Origin: Micromonospora parva
GTDB taxonomy: Bacteria; Actinomycetota; Actinomycetes; Mycobacteriales; Micromonosporaceae
Assembly (NCBI RefSeq): GCF_000718515.1
Contig: NZ_JNZS01000012.1
Location: forward strand, 124,001-188,000
DNA: 64,000 bases
Reading direction: 5' to 3'
Positions 10,630 to 52,969 of the stretch are shown in pieces (the stretch's first letter is position 1; each line of letters begins with the position of its first letter). The notes beneath the pieces are model-generated. The model searched no databases. It was not told the origin of the DNA and saw only the letters and a program-made list of their open reading frames with translations. The translations under genes were made by a program, and so were the position numbers.

Positions 10630-11436
10630 ATGACCAACCCCTACGACCCTGCGCAAAACCAGCCATCCTCAGGCGCTCAGCAGCCGGCACCGCCAACCGC
10701 TCAATTTGCCCAGGTTCCCGCCGGCCAGTATCCGCCGCCGCCCGGGCAGAATCCGGCGCCTGTGGCGCCGCCGCCCACGCGCAAGCGGTCGTGGCTGATG
10801 CCCACCCTTATCGGTGCGGCTGTCGTCGTGGTGCTCTGCTGCGGTGGTGGGCTCGTGATCAGCCTGACCGGCGATGACAAGACGTCCGACGTGTCGGCCA
10901 GCACGGACATCCCCGCAACCGGCAGCAGTGCATCCGCACCAGCTGCGGCAGCGCCGAGCACGGCGGAGTCGGCACCCGCGTCCGCGAAGCCTGACCCGGT
11001 GACGACGACCGCCGCTCCCGACAAGCCCAAGGCCTTCGGCACTGGTGACAAAGTGCGCGGCGGTGACTTCGAATTCACCGTCAACAGCGTGAAGTGTGGG
11101 ATCTCCCAGGTTGGCAGCGAGTTCCTGAACAAGAAGGCGCAGGGCACCTTCTGCCGGGCCAGCGTGACCGTCAAGAACGTCACCAAGAGCGCCCACACCT
11201 TCCACGCTGATGGCACCATCACCGCCCAGGACGGCTCTGGTCGGAAGTACGAGGTCGACGGCGAGGCAGCCATCTACGGCAACACCGACGGGCAGGGCTT
11301 CCTCGACAAAATCAACCCGGGCAACTCGGTGAAGGCAAACGTCTACTTCGACGTACCGAAGGGCACGAAGCTGAAGAGCATCACGTTCGATGCCGGCTTG
11401 TTCACTCTCGCCGAGGACGCTGTCGTCACTCTGTGA
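10630..11436 (+). CDS. Membrane-anchored DUF4352 protein
   Basis: The ATG at 10630 opens a 268-residue protein. A Pro/Gln-rich cytoplasmic start (MTNPYDPAQNQPSSGAQQ) is followed by one membrane helix (LMPTLIGAAVVVVLCCGGGLVISL), a Ser/Ala/Pro linker, and a C-terminal DUF4352 immunoglobulin-like domain. The domain shows its usual pattern: GTGDKVRGGDFEFTVNSV, ASVTVKNVTKSAHTF, and VYFDVPKGTKLKSITF. The domain faces outside. DUF4352 proteins are common lipoproteins or membrane proteins in actinomycetes and Firmicutes with no settled role. It stands alone, ending in front of a strong hairpin. Confidence 0.85.
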   Translation: MTNPYDPAQNQPSSGAQQPAPPTAQFAQVPAGQYPPPPGQNPAPVAPPPTRKRSWLMPTLIGAAVVVVLCCGGGLVISLTGDDKTSDVSASTDIPATGSSASAPAAAAPSTAESAPASAKPDPVTTTAAPDKPKAFGTGDKVRGGDFEFTVNSVKCGISQVGSEFLNKKAQGTFCRASVTVKNVTKSAHTFHADGTITAQDGSGRKYEVDGEAAIYGNTDGQGFLDKINPGNSVKANVYFDVPKGTKLKSITFDAGLFTLAEDAVVTL

Positions 11437-33786: not shown

Positions 33787-34130
33787 CCGGTGGTCCCGAG
33801 GCGCGGAGCGTTGCGGGCGGCACGTTTGCTGAGGCGCTCCTCGGCGAGCCGGACCGCTCCGGCCATCCGCTGGCTCTCGGCACGGATGGCGTCTGCCCCC
33901 GCGTCGGTCAGTTTGTAGAAACGTCGCAGCCGACCCTTCTCCACCTCGTCGTGGTCGGGGGCGATGAGCCCCTGGGCGACGAGACGGTCAAGGGCTCCGT
34001 AGAGGGTGCCGGCGCGTAACCGGATCCTGCCGTCGGTCATCTGGTCGACCTCCGTCACCACGGCGTAGCCGTGCCGGGGTTGGTCGGCGAGGGCGGAGAG
34101 GATCAGGAACGTCTGCTCACTGAGGTCCAT
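33783..34130 (-). CDS. PadR-family transcriptional regulator
   Basis: 115 residues from ATG 34130 (MDLSEQTFLILSALADQPRHGYAVVTEVDQMTDGRIRLRAGTLYGALDRLVAQGLIAP). This is the complete PadR winged helix; the C-terminal dimer helix follows. The operator lies just upstream (34137-34159) and covers its own promoter, so autorepression is expected. It is co-transcribed with the membrane protein at 32833. Confidence 0.92.
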   Translation of the reverse strand: MDLSEQTFLILSALADQPRHGYAVVTEVDQMTDGRIRLRAGTLYGALDRLVAQGLIAPDHDEVEKGRLRRFYKLTDAGADAIRAESQRMAGAVRLAEERLSKRAARNAPRLGTTG

Positions 34131-35727
34131 GCACGATATATATCGCACCGCGATATATAAAGCAACGATGCCGGTGTGGGACGTCGCCGGTCGTGCCGCC
34201 CCCGGCTGCGTTGCGGGGGGCGGCGCGACCGATCAGTGGGTGGGTGGGCCAGCTGCGGGTGGACCACTGCTGGTTGCTGCCACCGTTGCAGGCCCAGAGG
34301 ATGAGTTTGGTGCCGTTGGCGGTGGCGGCGCCGTTGGCGTCGAGGCAGAGCCCGGACTGGACGCCGGTGATGGTGCCGTTGGAGTTGAGGTTCCACTGCT
34401 GGTTGGTGCCGCCGTGGCAGTCCCAGATGATGGCCTGGGTGCCGTTGGTGGTGCCCTGGCCGAAGGCGTCGAGGCACTTGTTGCCGTACACCTGGAGTTG
34501 TTTGCCGGCGGTGTAGGTCCAGCGCTGCGCGGTGCTGTTGCTGATGCAGTCCCAGAGCTGGACCTGGGTGCCGTTGGTGGTGGTGCCGTTCGGTACGTCG
34601 GCGCAGCGCCCGGACTGGCCGCCCACGACCTGGGCGTTCTGTTGCGGGTTGCCGCCTCCGGCCGGTGCGTAGCCGGCGGCGTTGATGTTGGCCTGGACGG
34701 CGTTCTCGGTGGCGGCCGTCGGGTAGCCGGAGGTCAGTACGCCCTCGAAGAACGTGCCCCGGCCGGTGATGCTGTTGTCGCCGCCGATGCCGAGCAGGAT
34801 GGCCCCTTCCTTCTTCATCGGGTGGTAGCCGTTGGGGCGTGGCCCGTCGAAGTAGGTCGTCAGGCTGCCCGACTGAGCGTTTCCGCCCCGGATCGCCCAG
34901 TGGTTCGGCTCGCCCTTGACCATGGCCGTGACGAAGCGGTGGTTGATGGACGCGATGTTGTTGTAGCCCGCGTTCACCCCGGAGAACAGCCCCCACTCCA
35001 GGTCGGCCATGATCCAGGGGCCGGCGCCCGCGCCGTAGCCCCACTGCTTGTTGGCGCCGAAGTAGACGGTCTCCATGATGGCGCGTTCGTCGGCCAGGTT
35101 GTTGGTCTGGGCGTTGCCGTAGTCGAAGCAGCACCACTGGTTGTAGTGCGTGCCGTCGACGACCGCGTAGATGCCCTCGGGCTGGTCGCCGGTGGCGACA
35201 CCGTTGGTGTTGTTGTTGCGGTAGCCGGTGCCGGGGGCGATGTAGACGCCGTACGCCTTCTGGCCACCGACGGTGACCGGGGCCGCCTTCGCGTCGGCGA
35301 GGTTGTCCCAACCGCCAGGTGCGGGGCCGGCGAAGCCGCCGGGCGGTGCCTGGGTGAGCCGGTTGTTGCGGCCGGACTGGTCATAGATGATCGTGATGAC
35401 GCAGCTGGTGTTGGCGCAGAAGGCGTCCTGGGTGGCGGCGTTGGCGTAGCCCCCCTCGCTGAGTACGCCCACGTCGCGGGTGGTGTTGTCCGACGAGCGT
35501 CGGACCTGGTAGAGCGGGCCGTTGTAGGCGCCGTACAGCGCGCGGGTGGTGCTGTGCGCGGCCACGCAGGGTGTGCCGCCGGAGGCGTAGATGTCGCACG
35601 GGCCGGTGCCGGCGGCATGGGCGACGCCCGGGGTGTCCGAGACCACGTAGACGCCGGCGCTGACGACCACTGCCAGCAGGGTCCCGGCGGCGGCCATCAG
35701 GCGACCCAGTTTTCTCTTCACATTCAT
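34117..35727 (-). CDS. Secreted alpha-L-arabinofuranosidase, GH54 with C-terminal ricin-type lectin
   Basis: 536 residues from ATG 35727. A signal peptide leads to the GH54 catalytic domain (about residues 40-355): [54 protein letters not shown], and [11 protein letters not shown] with the likely nucleophile Glu244, ending NAVQANINAAGY. The ricin-type lectin follows (364-488), with [14 protein letters not shown] and repeated QxW motifs. GH54 removes L-arabinose from arabinan and arabinoxylan. Unlike related ends, residues 489-536 run past the last QQW into an Arg/Pro tail, through a hairpin and into the PadR operator. The gene probably lost its own stop. Confidence 0.85.
   Translation of the reverse strand: MNVKRKLGRLMAAAGTLLAVVVSAGVYVVSDTPGVAHAAGTGPCDIYASGGTPCVAAHSTTRALYGAYNGPLYQVRRSSDNTTRDVGVLSEGGYANAATQDAFCANTSCVITIIYDQSGRNNRLTQAPPGGFAGPAPGGWDNLADAKAAPVTVGGQKAYGVYIAPGTGYRNNNTNGVATGDQPEGIYAVVDGTHYNQWCCFDYGNAQTNNLADERAIMETVYFGANKQWGYGAGAGPWIMADLEWGLFSGVNAGYNNIASINHRFVTAMVKGEPNHWAIRGGNAQSGSLTTYFDGPRPNGYHPMKKEGAILLGIGGDNSITGRGTFFEGVLTSGYPTAATENAVQANINAAGYAPAGGGNPQQNAQVVGGQSGRCADVPNGTTTNGTQVQLWDCISNSTAQRWTYTAGKQLQVYGNKCLDAFGQGTTNGTQAIIWDCHGGTNQQWNLNSNGTITGVQSGLCLDANGAATANGTKLILWACNGGSNQQWSTRSWPTHPLIGRAAPRNAAGGGTTGDVPHRHRCFIYRGAIYIVHGPQ
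34137..34159 (-). promoter_or_regulatory. PadR-type operator/promoter
   Basis: A perfect palindrome with 10-bp arms, TATATATCGC-ACC-GCGATATATA, sits seven bases upstream of the PadR start codon on the minus strand. AT-rich repeats of TATA around a CG core are typical of PadR operators. TATA on this strand also can serve as the -10 box, so binding would block transcription. Confidence 0.8.
34192..34227 (-). terminator. Terminator-like hairpin inside the GH54 3' tail
   Basis: A GC-rich stem, GCCGCCCCC paired with GGGGGCGGC, with two to three further closing pairs and a 12-base loop, lies at the end of the lectin-coding part. It sits where a terminator would be expected if the gene stopped near 34230. 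It supports a lost stop. Confidence 0.55.
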
Positions 35728-35766: not shown

Positions 35767-35785
35767 TTGACGTCACACGTCATAC
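35767..35785. promoter_or_regulatory. 19-bp motif shared with the GntR/ABC promoter
   Basis: TTGACGTCACACGTCATAC is identical to 52941-52959. TGACG and CGTCA form an inverted repeat around TCACA. It lies 40 bases upstream of the GH54 gene (minus strand) and 142 bases before lacI. The likely binding protein is the GntR regulator at 52113 or a relative. Confidence 0.6.
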
Positions 35786-35905: not shown

Positions 35906-35915
35906 GAATCGATTC
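35906..35915 (+). promoter_or_regulatory. LacI operator GAATCGATTC (autoregulatory)
   Basis: The palindrome core GAATCGATTC lies 11 bases before the ATG of lacI, next to its ribosome site. It is the same core as at 41849, 42004 and 44009. Binding here would block lacI expression. Confidence 0.7.
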
Positions 35916-35926
35916 GAGGGCGATTG

Positions 35927-36940
35927 ATGAACATCGGGGAGATCGCCCGTCGGGCGGGGGTGTCCCGCAGCACCGTCTCCTACGTGCTCAGCGGGAAACG
36001 CAGCGTCTCGGAGGGGACCCGGCAACGCATCCAGTCGGTCATCGACGAGTTGAACTACCGGCCGAACGCCAGCGCCCGCGCGCTGAAGGAGGGGCGCACC
36101 CGCACCCTCGGGCTGGTCATCCCGCCGGCCAGCCAGCGATTGACAGACATGCAGCTGGGCTTCGTCGCCAGCGTCGTCGAGGCGGCCGCCCGCCACGACC
36201 TCGATGTGCTGCTGTCCCCCTCCGGTGGCGACCATGACCGGTCCTTCGAACGGATCGTGACCGGGCGTCGGGTGGACGGCGTGGTCCTGATGGAGATCCG
36301 GTTGGCCGACGACCGGGTGACCCGGTTGACCACGGCCGGGCTGCCGTTCGTCACGATCGGCCGGACCGCCGAGCCGCACGGGATGAGCTGGATCGACATC
36401 GACTACGCCGGCCTGATCGCCCGGTGCGTGCAACACCTGGCCGATCTGGGGCACCGGCAGGTGGCCCTCGTGAACCGGTCGGCGGAGCTGGTGGCCGCCG
36501 GATACGGCCCCAGCCATCGCGCGCTGGCCGGCTTTCGTGCGGCGGCGCTGGAGCGGGGGCTGACCGGCGTGGAGGTCTGCAGCGGCGACGACACGGCCTC
36601 CGGCGAGGCGTGCATGGAGCAGCTGCTCGCCACGCACCCGGAGGTCACCGCGGTGGCCACCATCAACGAGGCCGCACTGCCCGGGATGCAGCGCGCGCTG
36701 ACCGGCGCCGGGTTGTCGGTGCCCCGCGACTTCTCCGTCACCGGCGTCGCCGCGCAGCACTGGGCGGAGGACTTCCGTCCGCCGTTGACCGCCGCCGACG
36801 TGCCGATGGTCGAGATGGGCGCCGAGGCGGTGGCGCTCCTGCTGGAGATCATCGCGGCTCCCGGCGCCGTGCCACGACACCGCCTCTACAGCCCGCCCAT
36901 CTCGTTGCGTTCCAGCACCGGGCCGGTCCGGGCCCGCTGA
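35927..36940 (+). CDS. LacI-family transcriptional regulator of arabinan-type polysaccharide use
   Basis: 337 residues from ATG 35927, with GAGGG upstream. The N-terminal HTH and hinge are NIGEIARRAGVSRSTVSYVLSGKRSVSEGTRQRIQSVIDELNYRPNASARALKEGRT. The periplasmic-binding-like effector domain follows (LGLVIPPAS..., DGVVLMEIRLADDRV, HRQVALVNR, AVATINEAALPGMQRAL, DFSVTGVAAQHWAEDFRPPLTAADVPMVEMGAEAV). The protein is convergent with the GH63-like gene and close to the sugar importer. A palindrome in front of it and in front of three other units points to it as regulator of this regulon. The effector is probably a sugar or oligosaccharide. Confidence 0.9.
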   Translation: MNIGEIARRAGVSRSTVSYVLSGKRSVSEGTRQRIQSVIDELNYRPNASARALKEGRTRTLGLVIPPASQRLTDMQLGFVASVVEAAARHDLDVLLSPSGGDHDRSFERIVTGRRVDGVVLMEIRLADDRVTRLTTAGLPFVTIGRTAEPHGMSWIDIDYAGLIARCVQHLADLGHRQVALVNRSAELVAAGYGPSHRALAGFRAAALERGLTGVEVCSGDDTASGEACMEQLLATHPEVTAVATINEAALPGMQRALTGAGLSVPRDFSVTGVAAQHWAEDFRPPLTAADVPMVEMGAEAVALLLEIIAAPGAVPRHRLYSPPISLRSSTGPVRAR

Positions 36941-36950
36941 TCCGACCCGG

Positions 36951-38663
36951 CTACCCGCCCCTGACCCGCCGTTGCTCCGCGGCGGCGGCGAGGATGAGAT
37001 AGCTGCTCGCGGTCCAGGTATACGCCCGGTCGCGCAGGCCGGTGCCGGTCTCGGCGTCGAAGTTCTCCGCGAAGCCGGACTTCTCACACAGGGCGAGGAA
37101 GCGTCGGCTGATGTCGTCGGCGATCCTGGTCTGCCCGGCCCGGCGCAGGCCGTCCTCGACCAGCACCGTGGACGGTGCCCAGATCGGGCCACGCCAGTAG
37201 CCGTCGGCCACGTAGTGGGCCGAGTCCGTCGGCTCGGTGGCCAGCCCGTGCGTGGTCAGGTGGGTTTCGACGCCTCGCGCCAGCGCGGCGGCGACCGGGG
37301 CCGGCAGGTCGGCCCCCAGCGCGACGGGCATCAGGTCGAGCAGACTGCGGCTGGATCGCCGCTGCCCGGTACGGGGGTCACGGGCACGGAAACGCTCACC
37401 GTCCCACAGGTCGCGCAGCATGGCAGCGTGGATCCGGTCGGCCTCCCGGGACCAGCGGGCGGCGGGCTCACCCAGCTCGGTGGCGAGGTCGGCGAGGCAG
37501 CGCAGCTGCGACACCAGGAACGCGGCGAGGTCGGCCGTCTCGAGGACCCGGCTGTCGTCGAAGGTGGTGGCGTTGTCCCAACCGCTGTCGTTGCCGTGGT
37601 GGTAGTGCGGCAGGTCGTGGCCGGGGGCCCGCCGCGCGTCGAGCCAGAACCCGGTCCAGCGCGCCACCCGGTCGTAGGTCTGCGCCAGCGCCGCCCGATC
37701 CGGCGGCTCGGGAAGGCGTCGGCGCAGGTGACGCAGGGCCCAGCCGTGGATGGGGGGCTTGACGTAGTTGTGCAGGACCTCGGAGTGGGTGACCGAGTCG
37801 GGCAGGGCGCCGGTCTCGTCCTGGTGGTCGAAGGGCAGCTGGAACTGGTGCCAGGCCAGCTCCGGCTCGCCGGCAGCCAGGGCTATCGCGTTGAAGCAGT
37901 GGTCCCAGCTCCACACCTTGTCCATCCAGTGCTTGGACATCAGCACGGCCGGTCGGGTGACGAAACCCGCCGGAGCGACGGTGGCCGACCACAGGACGTA
38001 CGCGGCCAGCTCGGCGGCCGGGGTCTGGGCACCACGCCAGGGCGCGATCGCGTCGACGAACGCGGTGAACTCGGCCATCCGGTCACGGCACAACCGCTCG
38101 AAGGCGACGGATCCGGCGTACGGACGGCGCGCCGTGGCGTACTCCTCGATCGCGATCTCCCAGGGCTGGTCGCCCGGCAGGTCCACGGACCGGTCGGCGG
38201 TGCCGAGCGCCTGCGCGCCGTCGGTCCGCGACAGAGCGCCGGAGAGCACTGTGACCCGGTAGCGGCGACCGGTCTCGTACGAGGTGAACACGTGTGACCC
38301 GTCGACCGGGTCGGCGTACAGGTAGGTGCCGCTGAACGGGGTGAGGGTGTGCGCGGCGGCGGCCACCCGCAGGCCGAGCCGGTGGCCCCGGATCCGCAGG
38401 GTGTCCGGCCCGTCGTAGACGGCCTCGATCCGGCCGGTGCCGTTGTGCCAGGTCAGCACCGTGGGTGTGGCGACGACGGTGGTGCCGGCGACACTGGGGG
38501 CGAGCCGCAGGACGGGGTGCAGCCCGGTCTGGTGCGAGACCAGGTGCAGATCGTCGGCGTACGTCTTCTCGGCTACCACCGGGGAGATGTCGAACCAGGA
38601 TCCTCGGTAGCTGAACGGGATGTCCTGGATTCCGAACTCCGGACCGGACGGGGCGACGGTCAT
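36951..38663 (-). CDS. GH63/MGH1-like glycoside hydrolase
   Basis: 570 residues from ATG 38663, without a signal peptide, so cytoplasmic. The N-terminal part is beta-rich. The C-terminal (alpha/alpha)6 barrel shows WMDKVWSWDHCFNAIAL, HYHHGNDSGWDNATTFDDSRVLETADLAAFL and YWRGPIWAPSTVLVEDGLRRAG, which correspond to the catalytic motifs of the GH63/GH37-like clan-G enzymes such as YgjK. It probably hydrolyses an imported oligosaccharide. It is the last gene of the ABC importer operon, 56 bp past the second permease. Substrate unknown. Confidence 0.8.
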   Translation of the reverse strand: MTVAPSGPEFGIQDIPFSYRGSWFDISPVVAEKTYADDLHLVSHQTGLHPVLRLAPSVAGTTVVATPTVLTWHNGTGRIEAVYDGPDTLRIRGHRLGLRVAAAAHTLTPFSGTYLYADPVDGSHVFTSYETGRRYRVTVLSGALSRTDGAQALGTADRSVDLPGDQPWEIAIEEYATARRPYAGSVAFERLCRDRMAEFTAFVDAIAPWRGAQTPAAELAAYVLWSATVAPAGFVTRPAVLMSKHWMDKVWSWDHCFNAIALAAGEPELAWHQFQLPFDHQDETGALPDSVTHSEVLHNYVKPPIHGWALRHLRRRLPEPPDRAALAQTYDRVARWTGFWLDARRAPGHDLPHYHHGNDSGWDNATTFDDSRVLETADLAAFLVSQLRCLADLATELGEPAARWSREADRIHAAMLRDLWDGERFRARDPRTGQRRSSRSLLDLMPVALGADLPAPVAAALARGVETHLTTHGLATEPTDSAHYVADGYWRGPIWAPSTVLVEDGLRRAGQTRIADDISRRFLALCEKSGFAENFDAETGTGLRDRAYTWTASSYLILAAAAEQRRVRGG

Positions 38664-38719
38664 GGGTGGCGGGTGCCTCTCTGTGGTGCGGGTGGTCGGT
38701 CCTCGACCGCCGCGGATGG

Positions 38720-39544
38720 TCAGTCCTTGACGGCGCCGGCGGTCACGCCCATCGAGACGTAGCGCTGGGCCAGGATCAGCAGTACGGCGGCGGGGATCGA
38801 GGCGACGACGGCGGTGGCCATGATGGCGTTCCACTGCTGGTTGTTGTTGCCGATGTAGTGGTAGATGCCGAGGGTGATCGGCTGGTGGTCGCCGCCTCCG
38901 GCCAGGGTCGAGGCGAAGATGAAGTCCGACCAGGACCACAGGAACGCGAAGAGCGACACCGTGACGATCGAGTTGCGGCTGACCGGCAGCACCACCGACC
39001 AGAAGGTCCGCAGTCGACCGGCGCCGTCGACCACTGCGGCCTGGAGCAGCTCGTCGGGGATGCCTGACATGAAGGCCGTGAAGATCAGGACGCCGAACGG
39101 CACCGCGAGCGTGGTGTCGGCCAGGATCAGGCCGGGCAGCGTGTTCAGGACGCCGAGGGTGAGGAAGATGGCGTAGAAGCCCATCGCCATGATGATTCCC
39201 GGGATCATCTGCGCGATCAGCAGCACGAAGCTCAGCGCCGGCCCGCCGGGTGGCCGCAGCTTCGCCAGGGCGTAGCCGGCGGGGGCGGCCAGTGCGACTG
39301 TCAGTGCCACGGTGCCGAGGCCGACCAGGAAGCTGGTGCCGAGGTACGGCAGTTGCTGGTCGAGCACCGCCCGGTAGCCGTCCAGGGTGCCGTTCGTGGG
39401 GAACAGGTGCGGGGGACTGGCCCGCATGTCCTGGTCCCGGGTGAAGGACACATTGATCATCCAGTAGACGGGGAAGAGCATCAGCCCGGTCAGCACCAGG
39501 CCGACGCCGGTCTTCCACCAGGCCCGAGGCGTCGAGGTGGTCAT
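38720..39544 (-). CDS. Sugar ABC transporter permease, MalG type
   Basis: 274 residues from ATG 39544, overlapping the stop of the first permease (ATGA). Six membrane helices and the EAA loop ELLQAAVVDGAGRLRTFWSVVLPVSRNSIVTV identify a CUT1 permease of the MalG kind. FTRDQDMRASPPHLFPTNGTLDGYRAVL is the periplasmic part. It works with the permease at 39541 and the lipoprotein at 40531. No ATPase gene is nearby. Confidence 0.93.
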   Translation of the reverse strand: MTTSTPRAWWKTGVGLVLTGLMLFPVYWMINVSFTRDQDMRASPPHLFPTNGTLDGYRAVLDQQLPYLGTSFLVGLGTVALTVALAAPAGYALAKLRPPGGPALSFVLLIAQMIPGIIMAMGFYAIFLTLGVLNTLPGLILADTTLAVPFGVLIFTAFMSGIPDELLQAAVVDGAGRLRTFWSVVLPVSRNSIVTVSLFAFLWSWSDFIFASTLAGGGDHQPITLGIYHYIGNNNQQWNAIMATAVVASIPAAVLLILAQRYVSMGVTAGAVKD

Positions 39545-40512
39545 CGCAGCTGCTGCCTCCGCTCGATCCGGATGTAGACGAGGCCGGCGATCAGGGCCAG
39601 CACGATGAGCAGGTTCCCGATGGCCGCGCCCGGGCCGAACTCGGGCAGCAGGTTGCCGAAGCCGAGCCGGTACGACCAGGTGGCGAGCGTGGCGGAGGAG
39701 CCGGTCGGGCCACCCCTGGTCATGATCCAGATGATGTCGAAGACCTTCAGCGTGTAGATCAACCCCAGCAGGAGCGTGATCGCGGAGACGGGACGCAGCA
39801 GCGGGAAGGTGATCCCCCAGAACCGTTGCCACCCGGTCGCGCCGTCGAGCGCGGACGCCTCGTACATCTCCGCCGGGATCGCCTGGAGGCCGCTGTACAG
39901 CACCACCAGGTTGAACGGGATGCCGATCCAGACGTTCGCGATGACCACCGAGGTGAGCGACCAGCCCGGTGAGGTGAGCCAGTTGACCGGGTCGATCCCG
40001 ACGACGCCGAGCGCCGCGTTGACCAGCCCCGAGTCGCTGTTGAGCAGCCACGACCAGGTCGACGCCGAGACGATCAGCGGCAACAGCCACGGTACGAGGA
40101 TCAGCGCCCGCAGCGTGCGCGACAGCGGGAAGTGCTGGTGGAAGAAGAGGGCCAGGGCCATCCCGATGGTGAACTGGAAGGCGAGCGAGGCCGCGGTGAA
40201 GACCACCGTGTGCGTGAGCGTGGGCCAGAACGCCGGGTCGGTCAGGACCGTCCGGTAGTTGTCGAGGCCGGCGAACGGTGCCCCGCCCTGCACGAACGAG
40301 CGGACGGTGTACTCCCGCAGGCTCAACTCGACGTTGCGGTAGAGCGGGTAGGCGTAGAAGGCCGCCAGGTAGATGGTCACCGGGGCCAGGAAGCCCCAGG
40401 CCCACCATCGGTTGGGCCGGCGGGCCCGGGACGGGGGAGGCCCGGGTGGGGCGGTGCTCGCCGCCCCACCCTGGTCCCGTACGGCAGTGGAGGTCTCTGT
40501 CGTGGCGCGCAT
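39541..40512 (-). CDS. Sugar ABC transporter permease, MalF type
   Basis: 323 residues with an extended cytoplasmic N-terminus rich in Pro and Arg, then six membrane helices. The family EAA loop is AEMYEASALDGATGWQRFWGITFPLLRPVSAIT. It forms the heterodimeric channel with the MalG-type protein. It follows the substrate-binding gene by 18 bp. Substrate is likely an arabino- or galacto-oligosaccharide, judged from neighbours, but unproven. Confidence 0.93.
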   Translation of the reverse strand: MRATTETSTAVRDQGGAASTAPPGPPPSRARRPNRWWAWGFLAPVTIYLAAFYAYPLYRNVELSLREYTVRSFVQGGAPFAGLDNYRTVLTDPAFWPTLTHTVVFTAASLAFQFTIGMALALFFHQHFPLSRTLRALILVPWLLPLIVSASTWSWLLNSDSGLVNAALGVVGIDPVNWLTSPGWSLTSVVIANVWIGIPFNLVVLYSGLQAIPAEMYEASALDGATGWQRFWGITFPLLRPVSAITLLLGLIYTLKVFDIIWIMTRGGPTGSSATLATWSYRLGFGNLLPEFGPGAAIGNLLIVLALIAGLVYIRIERRQQLR

Positions 40513-40530
40513 GGTGTCGGTTCGGATCGC

Positions 40531-41769
40531 TTACCTGGTCGAGGCGGCGGTCTGCGCGGCGGTCAGCGCCTCCTGTGGTGACTTCCCGCCGCTGAGGGCC
40601 GCCTGGACCGCCGTCCACAGGGATTCGGAGATCTTCGGGTACTTCGTACCGAGGTTGTCACCGGTGCGGCCCTTGGCTGCCCGGACCGCCTCCACCCAGA
40701 CCTTGAGCTTCGGGTCCGCGGTCGCCTGTCGCTCCTGCACGGCGGCGACGGGTGCGACGTAGGAGAGCGTGGTGTCCGTGGTGAGGAGGTTGTCGGCGTT
40801 GGTCAGACAGGCGACGAGCTGCTGCGACGTCTGGTAACGACCGGTGTTTTTCTGCACCGGGATGGAGACGAACTCACCACCGGTGGGCGCCGGGGCCGGG
40901 CCGCCCGCGCTGGCCGGGACCGGGATGGTGCCGTACGCGAAGGGAAGCTTCTCCGCGTTCGCCAACTGCCAGGTGCCGTTCTCGGCGAACGCGTAGTCGC
41001 CGGTGGCGAACTCCTGCCAGCTGGTGGTCTGGGTGTTGTTGATGACGGAGTTGGGGGCGTGGCCCTGCTTGAGCCAGTCGGTCCAGAGCGTCAGTGCGGA
41101 CACCGCCTGCGGCGAGTCCAGGCTGGTCAGTTGGGCCCCCGATCCCCAGAACCAGGGCAGGAACTGGAAGCTGCCCTCCTCGGTGCCGATCGCGGAGAAG
41201 GTGATGCCCTTCTTCCCCTTGGCCTTGACCTTGGTCAGGGCTGCGGTCAGCGACGTCCAGTCCGTGACGGTGGCGGGATCGACGCCGGCGGCGGTGAGCA
41301 GGTCCTTGTTGTAGTAGAGGGCGAGGGTGTTGGCCCCGATCGGCACCCCGTAGGTCTTGCCGTCGCTCTGGCCGGCGCCGAGCAGGTTCTTCTCCATGGC
41401 GGAGACGTCCAGCTTGTTGTCGTCGGTGGTGGTGAGCGCACCGGCCTCGGCCAGCGTCGAGATGACCGGGTTGTCGACGATCAGCACGTCCGGCGAGTTC
41501 CCCTGCTGGGCGGCGAGCAGCGCCTTGTTGGTCAGGTCGGTGGTGTCGTAGCCGGTTCGCTCGACCGTCACTCCGGCCGAGGTGCCGCACTTCTTGAGCA
41601 GCGCGACCCACTCGGAGTCGTCGGCGAACTGCGGATACGGGTCCCAGACGAGGTAGGCGCCCCCGTCGGAGGGGCCGTCGGTGGACGACGAGCAGGCACT
41701 GCCCGTCACTGCGGCGAGAGCTATCACGGCGACGGCGGCCAGGCGCCGCCGACGATTCAGTCCGGTCAT
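40531..41769 (-). CDS. Sugar ABC transporter substrate-binding lipoprotein
   Basis: 412 residues from ATG 41769. The lipobox is AAVTGSACSSSTDG, so the protein is lipid-anchored outside the membrane. The type-1 solute-binding fold shows SPDVLIVDNPVISTLAEAG, YGVPIGANTLALYYNKDLL, DYAFAENGTWQLANAEKLPFAYGTIPVPA and EFVSIPVQKNT. It delivers the sugar to the two permeases downstream. Two GAATCGATTC-type sites lie about 80-105 bp upstream, so LacI control is likely. Confidence 0.93.
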   Translation of the reverse strand: MTGLNRRRRLAAVAVIALAAVTGSACSSSTDGPSDGGAYLVWDPYPQFADDSEWVALLKKCGTSAGVTVERTGYDTTDLTNKALLAAQQGNSPDVLIVDNPVISTLAEAGALTTTDDNKLDVSAMEKNLLGAGQSDGKTYGVPIGANTLALYYNKDLLTAAGVDPATVTDWTSLTAALTKVKAKGKKGITFSAIGTEEGSFQFLPWFWGSGAQLTSLDSPQAVSALTLWTDWLKQGHAPNSVINNTQTTSWQEFATGDYAFAENGTWQLANAEKLPFAYGTIPVPASAGGPAPAPTGGEFVSIPVQKNTGRYQTSQQLVACLTNADNLLTTDTTLSYVAPVAAVQERQATADPKLKVWVEAVRAAKGRTGDNLGTKYPKISESLWTAVQAALSGGKSPQEALTAAQTAASTR

Positions 41770-41848
41770 CTGGTGCCTCACTTCAAATCGATCGTCAGGT
41801 GGGGTGTGTGGGTTGATCGTCGCGGGTTGGACCAGTCCAACCATGACG

Positions 41849-41873
41849 CGAATCGATTCGACGAATCGGTTCG
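41849..41873 (-). promoter_or_regulatory. Tandem LacI operators upstream of the sugar ABC operon
   Basis: CGAATCGATTCG (41849-41860) and CGAATCGGTTCG (41862-41873) are one base apart. The first is a perfect palindrome, the second has one changed base. They precede the ABC operon on the minus strand and may cover its promoter. Confidence 0.7.
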
Positions 41874-41970
41874 CCCGAAGATAGGTCTGGGCGTGGCCGG
41901 GGGTCAAGAGCCGGTCGGCCGGTCGAGGAGGATCGCAGGGCAACGTGGACGTAACCGCGCCGTCATCTCA

Positions 41971-42000
41971 TTGACATCGTTCAGTTCGTGGTCCTACGAT
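41971..42000 (+). promoter_or_regulatory. Promoter of the clan-A glycoside hydrolase gene
   Basis: TTGACA (41971-41976) and TACGAT (41995-42000) are separated by 18 bp. The LacI palindrome begins four bases after the -10 box. The same pair of boxes with the same spacing precedes the GH54 gene at 44086. Confidence 0.75.
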
Positions 42001-42003
42001 CCG

Positions 42004-42019
42004 TGCGAATCGATTCGCA
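42004..42019 (+). promoter_or_regulatory. LacI operator at the transcription start
   Basis: TGCGAATCGATTCGCA is a perfect 16-bp palindrome just after the -10 box, where repressor binding would block initiation. Confidence 0.75.
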
Positions 42020-42068
42020 AGCGCTGCCCTCCGGAGAGCGTCCCCCGCGCCCCACCAAGGAGCCGCCC

Positions 42069-43904
42069 GTGAAAACCCCGTCCCGCAGCAGGTCAGGACG
42101 AGCCCGCGTGTTCGCGGCCCGACTCGTCGTCGGCCTGCTCGCCGCCGCAGCCGCCGTCACCGTCGTCGCGTCCCCCGCCCAGGCCGCCGACGAGTCGATC
42201 AGTGTCAACTTCTCCACCACCAGCGGTGCGCCGACCTACCGCGCGTCCGGCTGGATCTACGGCATGACCGAGAACGCCAGCGGCCCCGCCGACCACTTCT
42301 ACCGGGACGTCAAGTTCCAGTACATGCGCGCCGGTGGCGCGCAGCTTCCGGGGAGTGGCTGGGTCGGCGGCACGTACGACCGTCGCTGGAACTCGACCCT
42401 CGCCCAGGCGCGCCGGACCACGTCCCTCGGCGGAAAGTTCATCATCCTGCCGCACGACCTGTGGGGCGCCGACGGTGCCGGAATCTCCCGCTTCCCCGGT
42501 GACAACGGCAACTGGACCGACTACGACAACTTCCTGACCCGCCTGATCAGCGACGTACGGGCGTCCGGCCTGTCGGTGCAGTGGGACATCTGGAACGAAC
42601 CCAACATCACCATCTTCTGGAACCGGCCGATCTCCCAGTACCTCGAACTCTGGCGTCGGACCTACCAGCGCATCCGGGCGGAGTTCCCCAGCCAGCTCAT
42701 CGTCGGGCCGAGCTGCGCCTGCGTGCCGTCGACCACGCACGCCTTCTGGAACCAGTACCTGGACTTCGTGCGCTCGACCAACACGGTGCCGGACATCATC
42801 AGCTGGCACTCGCTGCCCGGTGACCCGGTCGCCAACGTCGCCGCCGCCAACGCCACCCTCGACCCGCGCGGCATCGCCCACCCACGTCCGTACCAGATCA
42901 ACGAGTACGGCGCGCCGGACGAGCAGAACCCGGCCGACGGCGCCTGGTACATCGCGCGTCTGGAACGGGCCCGGGCCGACGGCCTGCGGGCGAACTGGGC
43001 CAGCGGCGGCAGTCTGCACAACGACCTCGGCAACCTGTTGATCCGCAACTCGGCCGGCCAGCACCAGCCCAAGGGGGAGTGGTGGAACTACCGCTACTAC
43101 GCCTCCCAGGTCGGCGAGAACGTCGCGGTGACCCCCAGCCAGTCGTACGACGCGTACGCCACGAAGACGGCCGGGTCGGCGAAGGTCCTGCTCGGCGGTG
43201 GTCGTACCACCGGGAACCTGACCGTCAACCTGCAACGCCTGGACACCACCAGCGGCATCGTGCAGAACAACCAGGTCCGGGTCGTCACCCAACGCATCCT
43301 GCACAACGGCGGTGGCGCCGTGCCGGGGCCGGTCACGGTCTCGAACAGCGTGGTCACGGTCTCCAACAACAACGCGACGGTGACAGTTCCGTACACCAAC
43401 CAGACCGACACCTACACCGTCACGCTGCTGCCCCCCTCGGACGGTGGCTTCCAGTCGGTGGCGGTGGCCCAACACTCCCAGCAGTGCCTGAACAACGCCG
43501 GGCTGAGCACCGCCGACGGCAACGTCCAGCAGCAGAACCACTGCGACGGGGGTGACCAGCAGCTGTGGAACTTCCGGCCGGTGGCCGGCGTGGCCAACAC
43601 CTACACGGTGGTCAACCAGCAGAGCGGCAAGTGTCTCGACGTCAGCGGCGTGTCCACCGCCGACGGCGCGGCGGTGCACCAGTGGACCTGCCTGAACGGC
43701 CTCAACCAGCAGTTCACGCTGCGCAAGGTGACCTACGCCGGCAGCGACTCGCACGACTACCAGCTCATCGCCCGCCACAGTGGCAAGTGCGTCGATGTCA
43801 ACGCGGTCTCCACGGCGGCCGGCGCGCAGGTGCACCAGTGGACCTGCCGGGCGGCCAACCAGGGCAGCCCGTTGAACCAGACGTGGCGGCTCCTGGGGCG
43901 GTAG
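42069..43904 (+). CDS. Secreted clan-A glycoside hydrolase (GH39-like) with ricin-type lectin
   Basis: 611 residues from GTG 42069, with AAGGAG upstream. A signal peptide ends near residue 40. The (beta/alpha)8 domain has FQYMRAGGAQLPGSGWVGGTYDRRWN, WDIWNEPNITIFW with the likely acid/base Glu177, and PYQINEYGAPDEQ with the likely nucleophile Glu279, as in GH39-like retaining enzymes. A beta-sandwich follows. The C-terminal ricin-type lectin begins around residue 465 with repeated QxW and CLDVSG motifs. It probably attacks a plant arabinose- or galactose-containing polymer. The exact family is uncertain. Confidence 0.75.
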   Translation: MKTPSRSRSGRARVFAARLVVGLLAAAAAVTVVASPAQAADESISVNFSTTSGAPTYRASGWIYGMTENASGPADHFYRDVKFQYMRAGGAQLPGSGWVGGTYDRRWNSTLAQARRTTSLGGKFIILPHDLWGADGAGISRFPGDNGNWTDYDNFLTRLISDVRASGLSVQWDIWNEPNITIFWNRPISQYLELWRRTYQRIRAEFPSQLIVGPSCACVPSTTHAFWNQYLDFVRSTNTVPDIISWHSLPGDPVANVAAANATLDPRGIAHPRPYQINEYGAPDEQNPADGAWYIARLERARADGLRANWASGGSLHNDLGNLLIRNSAGQHQPKGEWWNYRYYASQVGENVAVTPSQSYDAYATKTAGSAKVLLGGGRTTGNLTVNLQRLDTTSGIVQNNQVRVVTQRILHNGGGAVPGPVTVSNSVVTVSNNNATVTVPYTNQTDTYTVTLLPPSDGGFQSVAVAQHSQQCLNNAGLSTADGNVQQQNHCDGGDQQLWNFRPVAGVANTYTVVNQQSGKCLDVSGVSTADGAAVHQWTCLNGLNQQFTLRKVTYAGSDSHDYQLIARHSGKCVDVNAVSTAAGAQVHQWTCRAANQGSPLNQTWRLLGR

Positions 43905-43919
43905 GCGTCCCGGGAAATG

Positions 43920-43958
43920 GTGACGCGCTGGCCGTCGGTCCCACGGCCAGCGCGTCAC
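43920..43958 (+). terminator. Hairpin terminator
   Basis: A perfect 16-bp inverted repeat (GTGACGCGCTGGCCGT and its complement, 7-base loop) begins 15 bases after the stop of the clan-A hydrolase gene and separates it from the next promoter. Confidence 0.85.
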
Positions 43959-43973
43959 GTCGCATTGCATTCA

Positions 43974-44003
43974 TTGACATAAATTCCACAAAGGTCATAC
44001 GAT
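43974..44003 (+). promoter_or_regulatory. Promoter of the GH54 gene at 44086
   Basis: TTGACA (43974-43979) and TACGAT (43998-44003) with an 18-bp spacer, matching the promoter at 41971-42000. Confidence 0.75.
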
Positions 44004-44008
44004 TCGCT

Positions 44009-44022
44009 GCGAATCGATTCGC
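44009..44022 (+). promoter_or_regulatory. LacI operator upstream of GH54
   Basis: GCGAATCGATTCGC is a perfect palindrome lying five bases past the -10 box, as at 42004. Confidence 0.75.
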
Positions 44023-44034
44023 CGCCACCACTGA

Positions 44035-45660
<1,626 letters not shown>

Positions 45661-45742: not shown

Positions 45743-47092
45743 TCAGGCGATGGCGCAGGACGCGCCGTTGAGGGTGAACGAGGACGGCCGGGCGTTGTTG
45801 CCGGTGTGGGTGGCCTGGAAGCCGATGGTCACCGAGCCGTTGGCGGGGATGCCGCCGTTGTAGGCGACGTTGCGGGCCGTCACCTGCCCGGAGTTGGGCG
45901 AATAGGTGGCGTTCCAGCCCGAGGTGATGGTCTGCCCGCTCGGCAGGGTGAAGACCAGTGACCAGCCGTTGACGGCGCTGGTGCTGGTGTTCGTAATGGT
46001 GATGTTCTCGGTCAGGCCGTTGTTCCAGGCGTTGACGGCGACGCTCACCCGACAGGCGCCGTTGGCCGGCGGCGGCGTGGTGGGCGGCGGCGTGGTCGGG
46101 GGTGGCGTGGTCGGGGGTGGCGTCGTCGGCGGCGGGGTGGTCGGCGGCGGCGTCGTGGGGTTGGTCAGGCCGAAGAACTGCAGGGCCGCGGCAGCCATTC
46201 CGCCGGAGGGCAGGCTGTGCCCGGCCCCCTGGATGCTGTACGCCTCAACCTGGACGGTGCCGTTGCTGTCGGCGTAGCGACGCCGGTTCCAGTTGGCCTG
46301 GGGCGTGTCGGTGGAGGTGGGTGTCTGGCTCAGCCCGAACACGTTGGTCCACTGCTCGATCGTCTCCTGCAGCAACGAGTACGGCACGAGCGTGTCGCTG
46401 GTGCCGTGCCACAGCTGCACGCGCGGGCGGGGCCCGGAGTAACCCGGGTACGCCTGGCGGACCGCGTCGCCCCACTGCTGCGGGGTCCGGTTCATGTTGC
46501 CGCCGGTGCACTGGCTGCTGCCGGGCGGATAGTCCGCCGCGTTGGCGAAGCAGTTGAACGGCACGCCCATGAACGCGGCGCCGGCCTTGAACACGTCGGG
46601 GTAGAGCGCCAGCATGTGGTTCGTCATCATGCCGCCGGAGGAACTGCCGGTGGCGTAGACCCGGTCCCCGTCGGCCGCGTACTGCTGCTGCACGTACCGG
46701 ATCATGGAGATGATCGACACCGGGTCGCTGCCGCCACCACGTCGCTTGGCGGCGTCCGACCAGGTGTCGAAGCAGTTGCCGAACCCGGCCTGCTGGGTGG
46801 CGGACGGGTAGATGACGATGTATCCGTAGCGGTCCGCGAGGCTGGCGAACTCGCTCCCGGAGTAGAAGCCGGGGCCGGATCCTCCGCAGCCGTGCATGGC
46901 CACCACGACCGCCGGGCGGGCCGGGCGGTTGTCCGGCACGTAGACGTGCATGCGCATCCGACCCGGGTTGTCACCGAAGCTGGTCACCTCGGTCAGCGAC
47001 GCCGCGTACGCGGGTCGGAGCGCGGGGACCAGCAGGCCGGCTGTCAGCAGCGGCACGGCGAGGGCGAGCAGCAGTTTTCTCTTGATTCTCAA
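45743..47092 (-). CDS. Secreted CE1/PHB-depolymerase-type esterase with C-terminal CBM2
   Basis: 449 residues from TTG 47092, chosen because AAGGAGT lies seven bases upstream. A signal peptide is followed by an esterase domain with VVVAMHGCGGSGPGFYSGSEFASLADRYGYIVIYP, the nucleophile elbow ATGSSSGGMM (Ser151), and a late His in IQGAGHSLPSGG. A TTPPP-repeat linker leads to a CBM2 (CRVSVAVNAWNNGLTENITIT to SFTLNGASCAIA). CE1 members are acetylxylan or feruloyl esterases; some are PHB depolymerases. CBM2 and the context favour an ester attached to plant polymers. It is divergent from a PaaX gene that is probably its regulator. Confidence 0.87.
   Translation of the reverse strand: MRIKRKLLLALAVPLLTAGLLVPALRPAYAASLTEVTSFGDNPGRMRMHVYVPDNRPARPAVVVAMHGCGGSGPGFYSGSEFASLADRYGYIVIYPSATQQAGFGNCFDTWSDAAKRRGGGSDPVSIISMIRYVQQQYAADGDRVYATGSSSGGMMTNHMLALYPDVFKAGAAFMGVPFNCFANAADYPPGSSQCTGGNMNRTPQQWGDAVRQAYPGYSGPRPRVQLWHGTSDTLVPYSLLQETIEQWTNVFGLSQTPTSTDTPQANWNRRRYADSNGTVQVEAYSIQGAGHSLPSGGMAAAALQFFGLTNPTTPPPTTPPPTTPPPTTPPPTTPPPTTPPPANGACRVSVAVNAWNNGLTENITITNTSTSAVNGWSLVFTLPSGQTITSGWNATYSPNSGQVTARNVAYNGGIPANGSVTIGFQATHTGNNARPSSFTLNGASCAIA
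46069..46158 (-). repeat. Tandem 15-bp repeats coding for a TTPPP linker
   Basis: About six 15-base units encode Thr-Thr-Pro-Pro-Pro between the esterase and its CBM2. The same linker type occurs in the CBM2 esterase at 22868. Unit number may vary between strains. Confidence 0.85.
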
Positions 47093-47230
47093 CGGACGAC
47101 TCCTTCGATTGCCGGTTCGGCTGGGATTGGTCGCGCGATCCGTCAGCGGGTGCGCCCGGTTCCCGCGTGATCGCGCCTGCCCGCTACCTGTGGCTTGCCC
47201 TGCCCGGCTCCGGACGGCATTGCGTGGCAA

Positions 47231-52112: not shown

Positions 52113-52883
52113 TCAGCGTTCGAGGCGGGCGGGGCTCCCCGAGCCGTTGCGGCGGACCAGCCAGGCCTCGGTGATGTGGGTGAACATCGCCTCAGCGGCG
52201 CCGTTGGCGTCGTGGGCGGCGATGCGTTCGTAGATGCGTCGGTGGCCCTGGTTGGACGCCACGCACAGGGCGCGTTCCGTCCGGCCCATGTACCGGGCGG
52301 TGTTGATCACCTGGCTTTCCAGCGCACGGACGACGCCACGAGCGATGCGGTTCCCCGACGCCTGCATGATCGTGTCGTGGAAGGCCCGGTCGTGGTCGTG
52401 GTAGGTGACGTGGTCGTCGACGAGCTCGTCCATCCGGTCGACCATGGCCCGCAGGCGCTCGATGGTCTCGGTGTCGGCGAGGCGGGCGGCGACGTTCGCC
52501 ATGTCGGACTCCAGCACCCGCCGGGTGACGACCAGGTCGTCGAGGATGGCGAAGCTGTCGTCCACGGCGATGGTCGCGGCGAGGACGAGCTCGTCGAGCA
52601 TGTCCCAGTGTGCCGGTGGGGTGACCATGGTGCCGGCGCCCTGGCGGACCTGCACCAGCCCCTTCTCCTGGAGGATCTTCACTGCTTCCCGGACGACGGT
52701 CCGGCTCACCCCGAAGGTCTCGCAGAGGATCGGCTCGGGAGGTAGGGACGTCCCGGACGGGTGTACGCCGCGGACGATGCGCTCCACCAGTTCGGCGGTG
52801 ACCGCCCTGGCGAGGTTGGTCGGCCGACGCACCCACGCCGGGGTCGCCGGGCTGTTCAGGGCTGTCTCCCGTGGTGGCGTCAT
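52113..52883 (-). CDS. GntR-family regulator, FadR/FCD subfamily
   Basis: 256 residues. The winged helix is NLARAVTAELVERIVRGVHPSGTSLPPEPILCETFGVSRTVVREAVKILQEKGLVQVRQGAGTMV. The FCD effector domain has a helical bundle with the metal-binding Asp and His positions (LVVTRRVLESDMANVAA, YHDHDRAFHDTIMQASGN, HRRIYERIAAHD). It is divergent from the ABC-catabolic operon at 53028, with a 144-bp spacer holding the TGACG-type motif, and is its likely repressor. The ligand would be a sugar acid. Confidence 0.92.
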   Translation of the reverse strand: MTPPRETALNSPATPAWVRRPTNLARAVTAELVERIVRGVHPSGTSLPPEPILCETFGVSRTVVREAVKILQEKGLVQVRQGAGTMVTPPAHWDMLDELVLAATIAVDDSFAILDDLVVTRRVLESDMANVAARLADTETIERLRAMVDRMDELVDDHVTYHDHDRAFHDTIMQASGNRIARGVVRALESQVINTARYMGRTERALCVASNQGHRRIYERIAAHDANGAAEAMFTHITEAWLVRRNGSGSPARLER

Positions 52884-52940: not shown

Positions 52941-52969
52941 TTGACGTCACACGTCATACGAGTTACGTT
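52941..52969 (+). promoter_or_regulatory. Promoter and GntR-type operator of the catabolic operon
   Basis: TTGACG (52941-52946) and TACGTT (52964-52969) are 17 bp apart. TTGACGTCACACGTCATAC (52941-52959) covers the -35 and spacer. The inverted TGACG/CGTCA halves look like a GntR site. Confidence 0.7.

Follow-up and report, generated by a model that had tools for sequence, protein, structure and literature searches.

A LacI-family protein encoded at 35927 in a 64,000-nt stretch of the Micromonospora parva genome (hereafter, the window; genome total, 7,125,718 bases) is very probably a repressor that binds the 12-bp site CGAATCGATTCG (core GAATCGATTC) and controls at least four transcription units. 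The candidate targets are an ATP-binding cassette (ABC) sugar importer operon, a GH39-like glycosidase gene, a GH54 arabinofuranosidase gene and an unlinked feruloyl-esterase-like gene.

Scanning the window revealed exact copies of GAATCGATTC at 35906-35915, 41850-41859, 42007-42016 and 44011-44020, and a one-base variant, GAATCGGTTC, at 41863-41872. The recurrence of the core across the cluster agrees with an initial annotation of this DNA, whose coordinates were correct to 1-3 bases, as does the position of the first copy, 11 bases before the lacI start. The perfect 16-bp palindrome described there in front of the clan-A hydrolase is also present (TGCGAATCGATTCGCA, 42004-42019), and a 14-bp palindrome, GCGAATCGATTCGC, occupies 44009-44022. 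CGAATCGATTCG is an even, CG-centered palindrome, as LacI-family operators are.

The site is scarce elsewhere. With up to one mismatch, GAATCGATTC was matched five times in the window, where 0.64 matches were expected, and none of 100 dinucleotide-preserving shuffles of the window reached five. Only five exact copies were found in the whole genome (7.1 Mb), four in the 8-kb cluster and one at C7:237356; window-trained Markov models (orders 1-3) predicted 1.1-2.0 exact 10-mers per genome. The sole exact off-cluster copy precedes the feruloyl-esterase-like gene, and the chance spread outside sugar loci for which a genome-wide search had been proposed was not seen. CGAATCGATTCG with up to one mismatch occurs at ten places genome-wide, five in the cluster and one before the esterase gene; at the remaining four, the promoter module described below was absent on both sides. 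In the window scan, no GAATCGATTC site with up to one mismatch was found at the GH10 gene (48939) or the esterase gene at 45743-47230.

Four promoters share the same order of elements, namely TTGAC, 17-20 bases, TAnnnT, a short gap and the operator. They precede the GH39-like gene (41971), the second GH54 gene (43974), the importer operon (minus strand, 41907-41862) and the esterase gene (C7:237321), and at each the 12-bp operator begins 4-6 bp past the -10 box. Across 483 distinct oriented flanks from 80 LacI-bearing loci (see below), 151 instances of TTGAC began between -37 and -32 relative to the site, when about 0.4 per position was expected from background. Another 62 lay at -48 to -45, which fits operators being the distal member of a pair, and nine were elsewhere within 60 bases. 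At all four promoters the operator appears to overlie the transcription start, and because of this coverage we read the arrangement as that of a blocking repressor.

In the proposed model, the LacI protein would hold down the importer operon, the GH39-like gene, the GH54 arabinofuranosidase gene and the unlinked feruloyl-esterase-like gene, with the bound dimer covering the transcription start and thereby blocking RNA polymerase. Release of the repressor would come from a small sugar that the predicted secreted enzymes liberate and the importer brings in. The abutting operators, found only at the importer in this genome, should provide tighter or steeper control than the single operators of the enzyme genes.

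Co-occurrence of the operator with the LacI gene

The lacI gene is linked to its putative targets, and we profiled its co-occurrence with the operator using a module of TTGAC, then TAnnnT, then GAATCGRTTC. Among 160 genomes of the genus, the module was found in 56/56 with an ortholog of this LacI and in 1/104 without (Fisher p 9e-43, a value that overstates the independent evidence because the test treats related genomes as independent). These counts support the LacI-type operator and the regulon of importer and hydrolases proposed in the initial annotation. Its description of the regulon as local held for membership of the cluster; the regulon is not purely local, since the unlinked feruloyl-esterase-like gene belongs to it too.

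Two looser patterns were rejected. CGAAYCGRTTCG was uninformative in a first set of 61 genomes (56 matched), as it also catches CGAACCGGTTCG. A module search with GAAYCGRTTC matched 71 of the 160 genus genomes, 15 of them LacI-lacking; among the matches listed, from 11 of those 15, all were GAACCGGTTC preceded by T, which we take as a different motif, and therefore the search was repeated with GAATCGRTTC. Another recurrent promoter-operator arrangement, TTGACG..TGCCTACCGTTG..TGAACCGGTTC, was observed in LacI-lacking genus genomes (e.g., G077, G005, G088, G112) and is probably the site of another regulator.

The first set comprised 37 genomes of the same genus and 24 order-level genomes outside it. 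A LacI ortholog (≥83% identity) was detected in 14 of the 37, and the exact 12-mer in 11 of these 14 and in 0/23 of the others. The three exceptions (G030, G035, G001) have one-mismatch variants close to lacI; further variants lie a few kb from lacI in G030 and G035, and the G001 contig ends inside lacI. We also collected LacI-bearing loci of up to 21 kb from named actinobacteria, taking the best 80 of 163 found with the LacI protein. A site with up to one mismatch was present in 79 of these 80; L161, which spans only ~560 bases before lacI, lacks one. In total the loci contain 251 such sites (109 exact), and 179 control palindromes of the same composition reached a maximum of 18 and a median of 1.

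Several observations weigh against this reading. One LacI-lacking genus genome, G161, has the module at a single site (C3:3979389-3979433). Outside the genus, 6 of the 24 order-level genomes contain the exact 12-mer, at 10 sites, with no LacI match at E 1e-60; six of these sites were examined and had no module, and the bare 12-mer is thus unspecific there. A 47%-identical LacI in G039 (L061) shares the SRSTVSY helix, yet G039 is without the exact 12-mer, so the helix alone is no proof of the same site. In 12 aligned lacI upstream regions (the window included), the 10-mer is exact in three, has one change in five and is lost in four. Eighteen of 279 sites considered lie inside open reading frames (ORFs) called by base composition and 24 have no called adjacent gene; among promoter-facing sites, 3 of 46 tandem and 12 of 99 single ones lack a called gene. 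The PF01229 match of the GH39-like protein is under the curated cut-off of 26, and all cross-genome counts come from related, not independent, genomes.

The weak conservation upstream of lacI also bears on its autoregulation, another part of the initial annotation. The site is present, as claimed, and autoregulation, which is frequent among local regulators of this family, is no more than plausible in this genome; the site is without the module here, which a sub-clade of relatives does have before lacI.

It is very unlikely that the sites are real operators bound by another regulator, such as a LacI paralogue or a global regulator. The M. parva genome encodes a LacI paralogue with 40% identity, CG-centered sites are similar among many LacI proteins (PMC4052901), and the helix of L061 is the same despite its origin outside the genus. 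However, paralogue-bearing genus genomes without this LacI (G004, G005, G010, G016, G027) contain neither the exact 12-mer nor the GAATCGRTTC module. In addition, LacI residues 14-19 (RSTVSY) are identical in 80/80 relatives by tblastn, these relatives having been found by this protein, whereas weaker relatives mostly differ (10 loci: seven VSVST, one VSPST, one VSRST in L061, one without a match). We consider it highly improbable that the 35927 protein binds the sites as an activator, or acts both ways as has been proposed for AraQ, a LacI protein of bifidobacteria (PMC5928203), given that the operator sits past the -10 box, over the likely transcription start, at the four module promoters. 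The probability that the repeats arose by chance, serve restriction or replication, or are functionless copies of promoter DNA is negligible: the bare 12-mer does occur in out-of-genus genomes without this LacI, but the module tracks one regulator gene across the genus, same-composition palindromes are not enriched, and the coding sequences behind the sites are unrelated to one another.

Repression by the 35927 protein is thus the reading we retain. Two further observations concern the distribution of the operator. The G161 promoter resembles the esterase promoters, its operator being kept without a detected LacI ortholog. At two loci (L107:6540-7682 and L109:6420-7562) a different LacI-family gene (VSQKTVSRVLNDEP) is divergent to a GH2 gene, with a CGAATCGATTCG site or variant between them, possibly an overlap of two LacI regulons.

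Paired operator at the importer promoter

Neighboring sites within 60 bp form 46 pairs in the 80 loci, and 44 of these (43 loci) are spaced exactly 13 bp center to center, as at the M. parva importer; the other two, from Dactylosporangium, are spaced 12 bp. Twelve genus names, possibly with synonyms among them, are represented among the 13-bp pairs; the families covered include Micromonosporaceae, Streptosporangiaceae and Actinospicaceae. A promoter precedes all 44, with CGAACCGATTCG as the proximal site in 39. The pair is near-symmetric, with the same T-to-C change in the promoter-facing half of the proximal site in 39/44, and the inner half is intact in 43/44 proximal and 36/44 distal sites.

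When the genes behind promoter-facing sites were classified by sequence motif, 37 of the 46 tandem sites preceded a binding-protein gene, compared with 7 of the 99 single sites; the pair is accordingly a strong, though not exclusive, mark of the importer. Other tandem sites precede a GH63-like ORF (two), GH39/CBM35-type genes of Planotetraspora (three, one of which was scanned by Pfam) and an unassigned ORF (one). Single sites mostly precede lectin-bearing hydrolases (50) and lacI (25), and also GH63-like ORFs (two) and others (three). In the Planotetraspora loci (L198, L205, L213; ~11181-11206), the 13-bp pair stands before the GH39/CBM35-type gene and a single site is on the importer side; the pair can thus move from one target to another.

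The pair may be a composite element at which two LacI dimers would bind 13 bp apart, a mode not provided for by known LacI-DNA structures, and which would be kept mostly at the importer to give it a steeper response than the secreted enzymes. We regard this as doubtful, and slightly lowered its odds because of the three Planotetraspora loci with the pair at a GH39-type gene. In the LacI survey (PMC4052901), 13 bp is a preferred tandem distance, found upstream of 110 operons, which LacI structures do not account for and with which they are difficult to square; one experimental case of this spacing, GntR of Escherichia coli, is mentioned. The importer pair is a strong further example of the arrangement rather than a solution to it. 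As a widely conserved natural case, it makes the question of 13-bp binding testable.

An inverted repeat (41823-41840) was noticed in the minus-strand importer leader, just past the tandem operator, and could form a hairpin. The repeat varies, with its pairing kept in several close Micromonospora relatives, and it is not apparent in distant genera.

Regulon genes and neighboring elements

The features of the cluster are listed in Table 1. Both LacI-family domains of the 35927 protein pass their cut-offs (27 for PF00356 and 26.5 for PF13377).

Table 1 Coordinates of the putative regulon features and neighboring elements in the window
Feature	Coordinates	Strand	Evidence
First GH54 arabinofuranosidase, divergent from lacI	34117..35727	-	PF09206 515.4 bits
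TTGACGTCACACGTCATAC element, 19 bp	35767..35785	.	identical copy at 52941-52959
Operator-like site 11 bp before lacI, weakly conserved	35906..35915	.	window scan, alignment
LacI-family regulator, 337 aa, proposed repressor	35927..36940	+	PF00356 67.1 bits, PF13377 91.3 bits
GH63-like (alpha/alpha)6 glycosidase, importer operon last gene	36951..38636	-	
ABC sugar permease	38720..39541	-	PF00528 66.6 bits
ABC sugar permease	39541..40512	-	PF00528 79 bits
ABC substrate-binding protein, importer operon first gene	40531..41769	-	PF13416 183.3 bits (scan of 40531-41766); start codon by eye
Tandem operator, two 12-bp sites, 13 bp center to center	41849..41873	.	site strings, cross-locus conservation
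Importer promoter (TTGACC / TATCTT) + promoter-proximal operator CGAACCGATTCG	41862..41907	-	module search
Promoter TTGACA-18-TACGAT + operator (palindrome 42004-42019), GH39-like gene	41971..42019	+	module search
GH39-like (clan GH-A) glycosidase + ricin-type beta-trefoil	42069..43904	+	PF01229 21.2 bits, PF14200 146.9 bits
Promoter TTGACA-18-TACGAT + operator, second GH54 gene	43974..44022	+	module search
Second GH54 alpha-L-arabinofuranosidase + ricin-type beta-trefoil	44086..45660	+	PF09206 456.6 bits, PF00652 105.8 bits

The last gene of the importer operon likely encodes an intracellular glycosidase for the imported sugar. We take the protein as cytoplasmic, no signal peptide being visible by eye. 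Its homologues (best 120 of 3621) are named 'amylo-alpha-1,6-glucosidase', 'trehalase' and 'glycogen debranching enzyme'. The AlphaFold2 (AF2) model has low-confidence loops (mean predicted local distance difference test score, pLDDT, 80.4) and matches GH63-type (alpha/alpha)6 proteins, with trehalases matched almost equally; fold searches with it pointed to no substrate.

The protein at 42069-43904 is filed as GH39-like only, because of its sub-threshold PF01229 score; related regulon members score 26.4 bits (L120) and 30.5 bits (L205). Its ORF is listed from 41988, and GTG at 42069 is the likelier start. Its matches in the PDB include 8uwt (E 1.9e-28) and 5u22 'N2152' (E 3.1e-23), the latter reportedly from a study of rumen-fungal GH39 enzymes on rare arabinosyl substrates, a title listed among the references of PMC10688797. 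The catalytic domains of both GH54 proteins exceed the PF09206 cut-off of 25. The GH39-like protein and the GH54 protein at 44086 appear to be secreted, as judged by eye from their N-termini. The unlinked gene behind the C7:237356 site (L026:7415-8926, on another contig) encodes a protein with a ricin-type domain that is akin to feruloyl esterase, the predicted activity; residues 99-359 match the solved feruloyl esterase 8jh8 (E 1.4e-76), and PF00756 scores 19.7 bits (cut-off 22).

From the 279 sites, 216 proteins beside sites were grouped by similarity, with Pfam run on representatives; beside means on either strand within ~450 bp, so some are merely neighbors. The largest groups were the binding protein (55), this LacI (51), GH39-like (38) and GH54 (23), followed by esterase-type (11), GH63-like (10), GH2 (5), a group of four including the GH39/CBM35 proteins of Planotetraspora, another LacI (3), a pair and singles. 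Seventeen exact sites outside the cluster were retrieved from relatives in the genus, and every one adjoins a hydrolase-type ORF. Seven of the encoded proteins were scanned, and all have a ricin-type domain, with a GH2, GH95, GH54 or weak esterase-type catalytic match, or none at threshold. In other species, GH141-like, GH27-type and GH43-type proteins adjoin such genes or sites.

Most of the identified members look like side-chain removers, and we therefore read the regulon as one for stripping and importing side chains. The GH43 family also includes endo-enzymes, so the GH43 protein could be an exception. The substrate seems somewhat more probable than not to be an arabinose-containing side chain, perhaps of a feruloylated plant glycan, in partial agreement with the arabinose-containing polymer originally proposed for uptake and digestion; any single named polymer is rather unlikely. 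Feruloylated arabinoxylan, feruloylated arabinan and arabinogalactan (protein) are possible.

The first GH54 gene was rejected as a LacI target, as it has no LacI module and its upstream region contains TTGACGTCACACGTCATAC. The second copy of this element, at 52941, lies between a FadR/GntR-type regulator gene (52113-52883) and a second importer operon, which also encodes an enolase-type dehydratase, a zinc dehydrogenase and a KduD-like dehydrogenase. Searched as 20 bases with up to three mismatches, the element occurs at just two places in the genome, and its 15-bp core with up to one mismatch adds C1:275779. The GntR protein may bind TTGACGTCACACGTCATAC, which likely marks a separate GntR regulon, and the first GH54 gene is probably under this GntR-type switch; control of the two neighboring arabinofuranosidases thus seems to be split between two regulators here.

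Eleven genus genomes have a GH54 gene of this higher-scoring type, and in eight of them the 15-bp element (up to one mismatch) is near it (G000, G002, G006, G024, G028, G029, G033 and G036; not G008, G012 or G018). The gene it accompanies lies at another chromosomal place in G006, as does one of the copies in G036. One GH54 gene of G018 has the LacI module instead, which points to species differences in GH54 control. In G036, a partial second LacI match (C51:424001-424498, L133; 86% identity over residues 101-265) adjoins a second GH54 copy and the GntR-type element, and may be the remnant of a duplicated locus.

Relation to known LacI systems

A literature search, with most subscription journals outside its coverage, found no such regulon described in Micromonospora. 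Systems of this type are well known; for Micromonospora, the analysis defines, across the genome and the genus, a regulon that would harvest plant-wall side chains. Co-regulation suggests a role for vaguely named genes, namely the GH63-like and GH39-like ones. Among known operators, the CelR site is reportedly TGGGAGCGCTCCCA-like. CelR-type actinobacterial sites are likewise LacI palindromes before an ABC importer and unlinked hydrolases, with variants of the site described, although that regulon serves cellulose enzymes, unlike the one here (PMC3377646). The Cellulomonas flavigena site, CNAA(T/A)CGNTTCNNNG, upstream of cellulases and beta-glucosidases (PMC3377646), resembles the present site.

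The LacI regulons of RegPrecise (PMC4052901) have the same even, CG-centered palindromes, sites upstream of sugar genes and 13-bp tandems; compared with that survey, the pair here is found chiefly at the importer promoter and persists across the genus names noted above. Micromonospora has been reported from nitrogen-fixing nodules (PMC4182475), and the present host is related to plant-associated soil species.

Compared by gene content, the bifidobacterial AbfR, AauR and BauR regulons (PMC5928203) similarly combine a LacI repressor, an ABC importer and arabinosidases. Their enzymes are mainly intracellular (GH43, GH51, GH121, GH127), whereas those here look mostly secreted, carry ricin-type domains and for the most part come from other families. 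A bifidobacterial cluster with a GH39 GAfase/AAfase that acts on arabinogalactan side chains (PMC10688797), compared by description, likewise has a secreted GH39 enzyme beside an ABC importer and an intracellular glycosidase that would take the released disaccharide; this last enzyme belongs to GH36 there and is GH63-like in M. parva.

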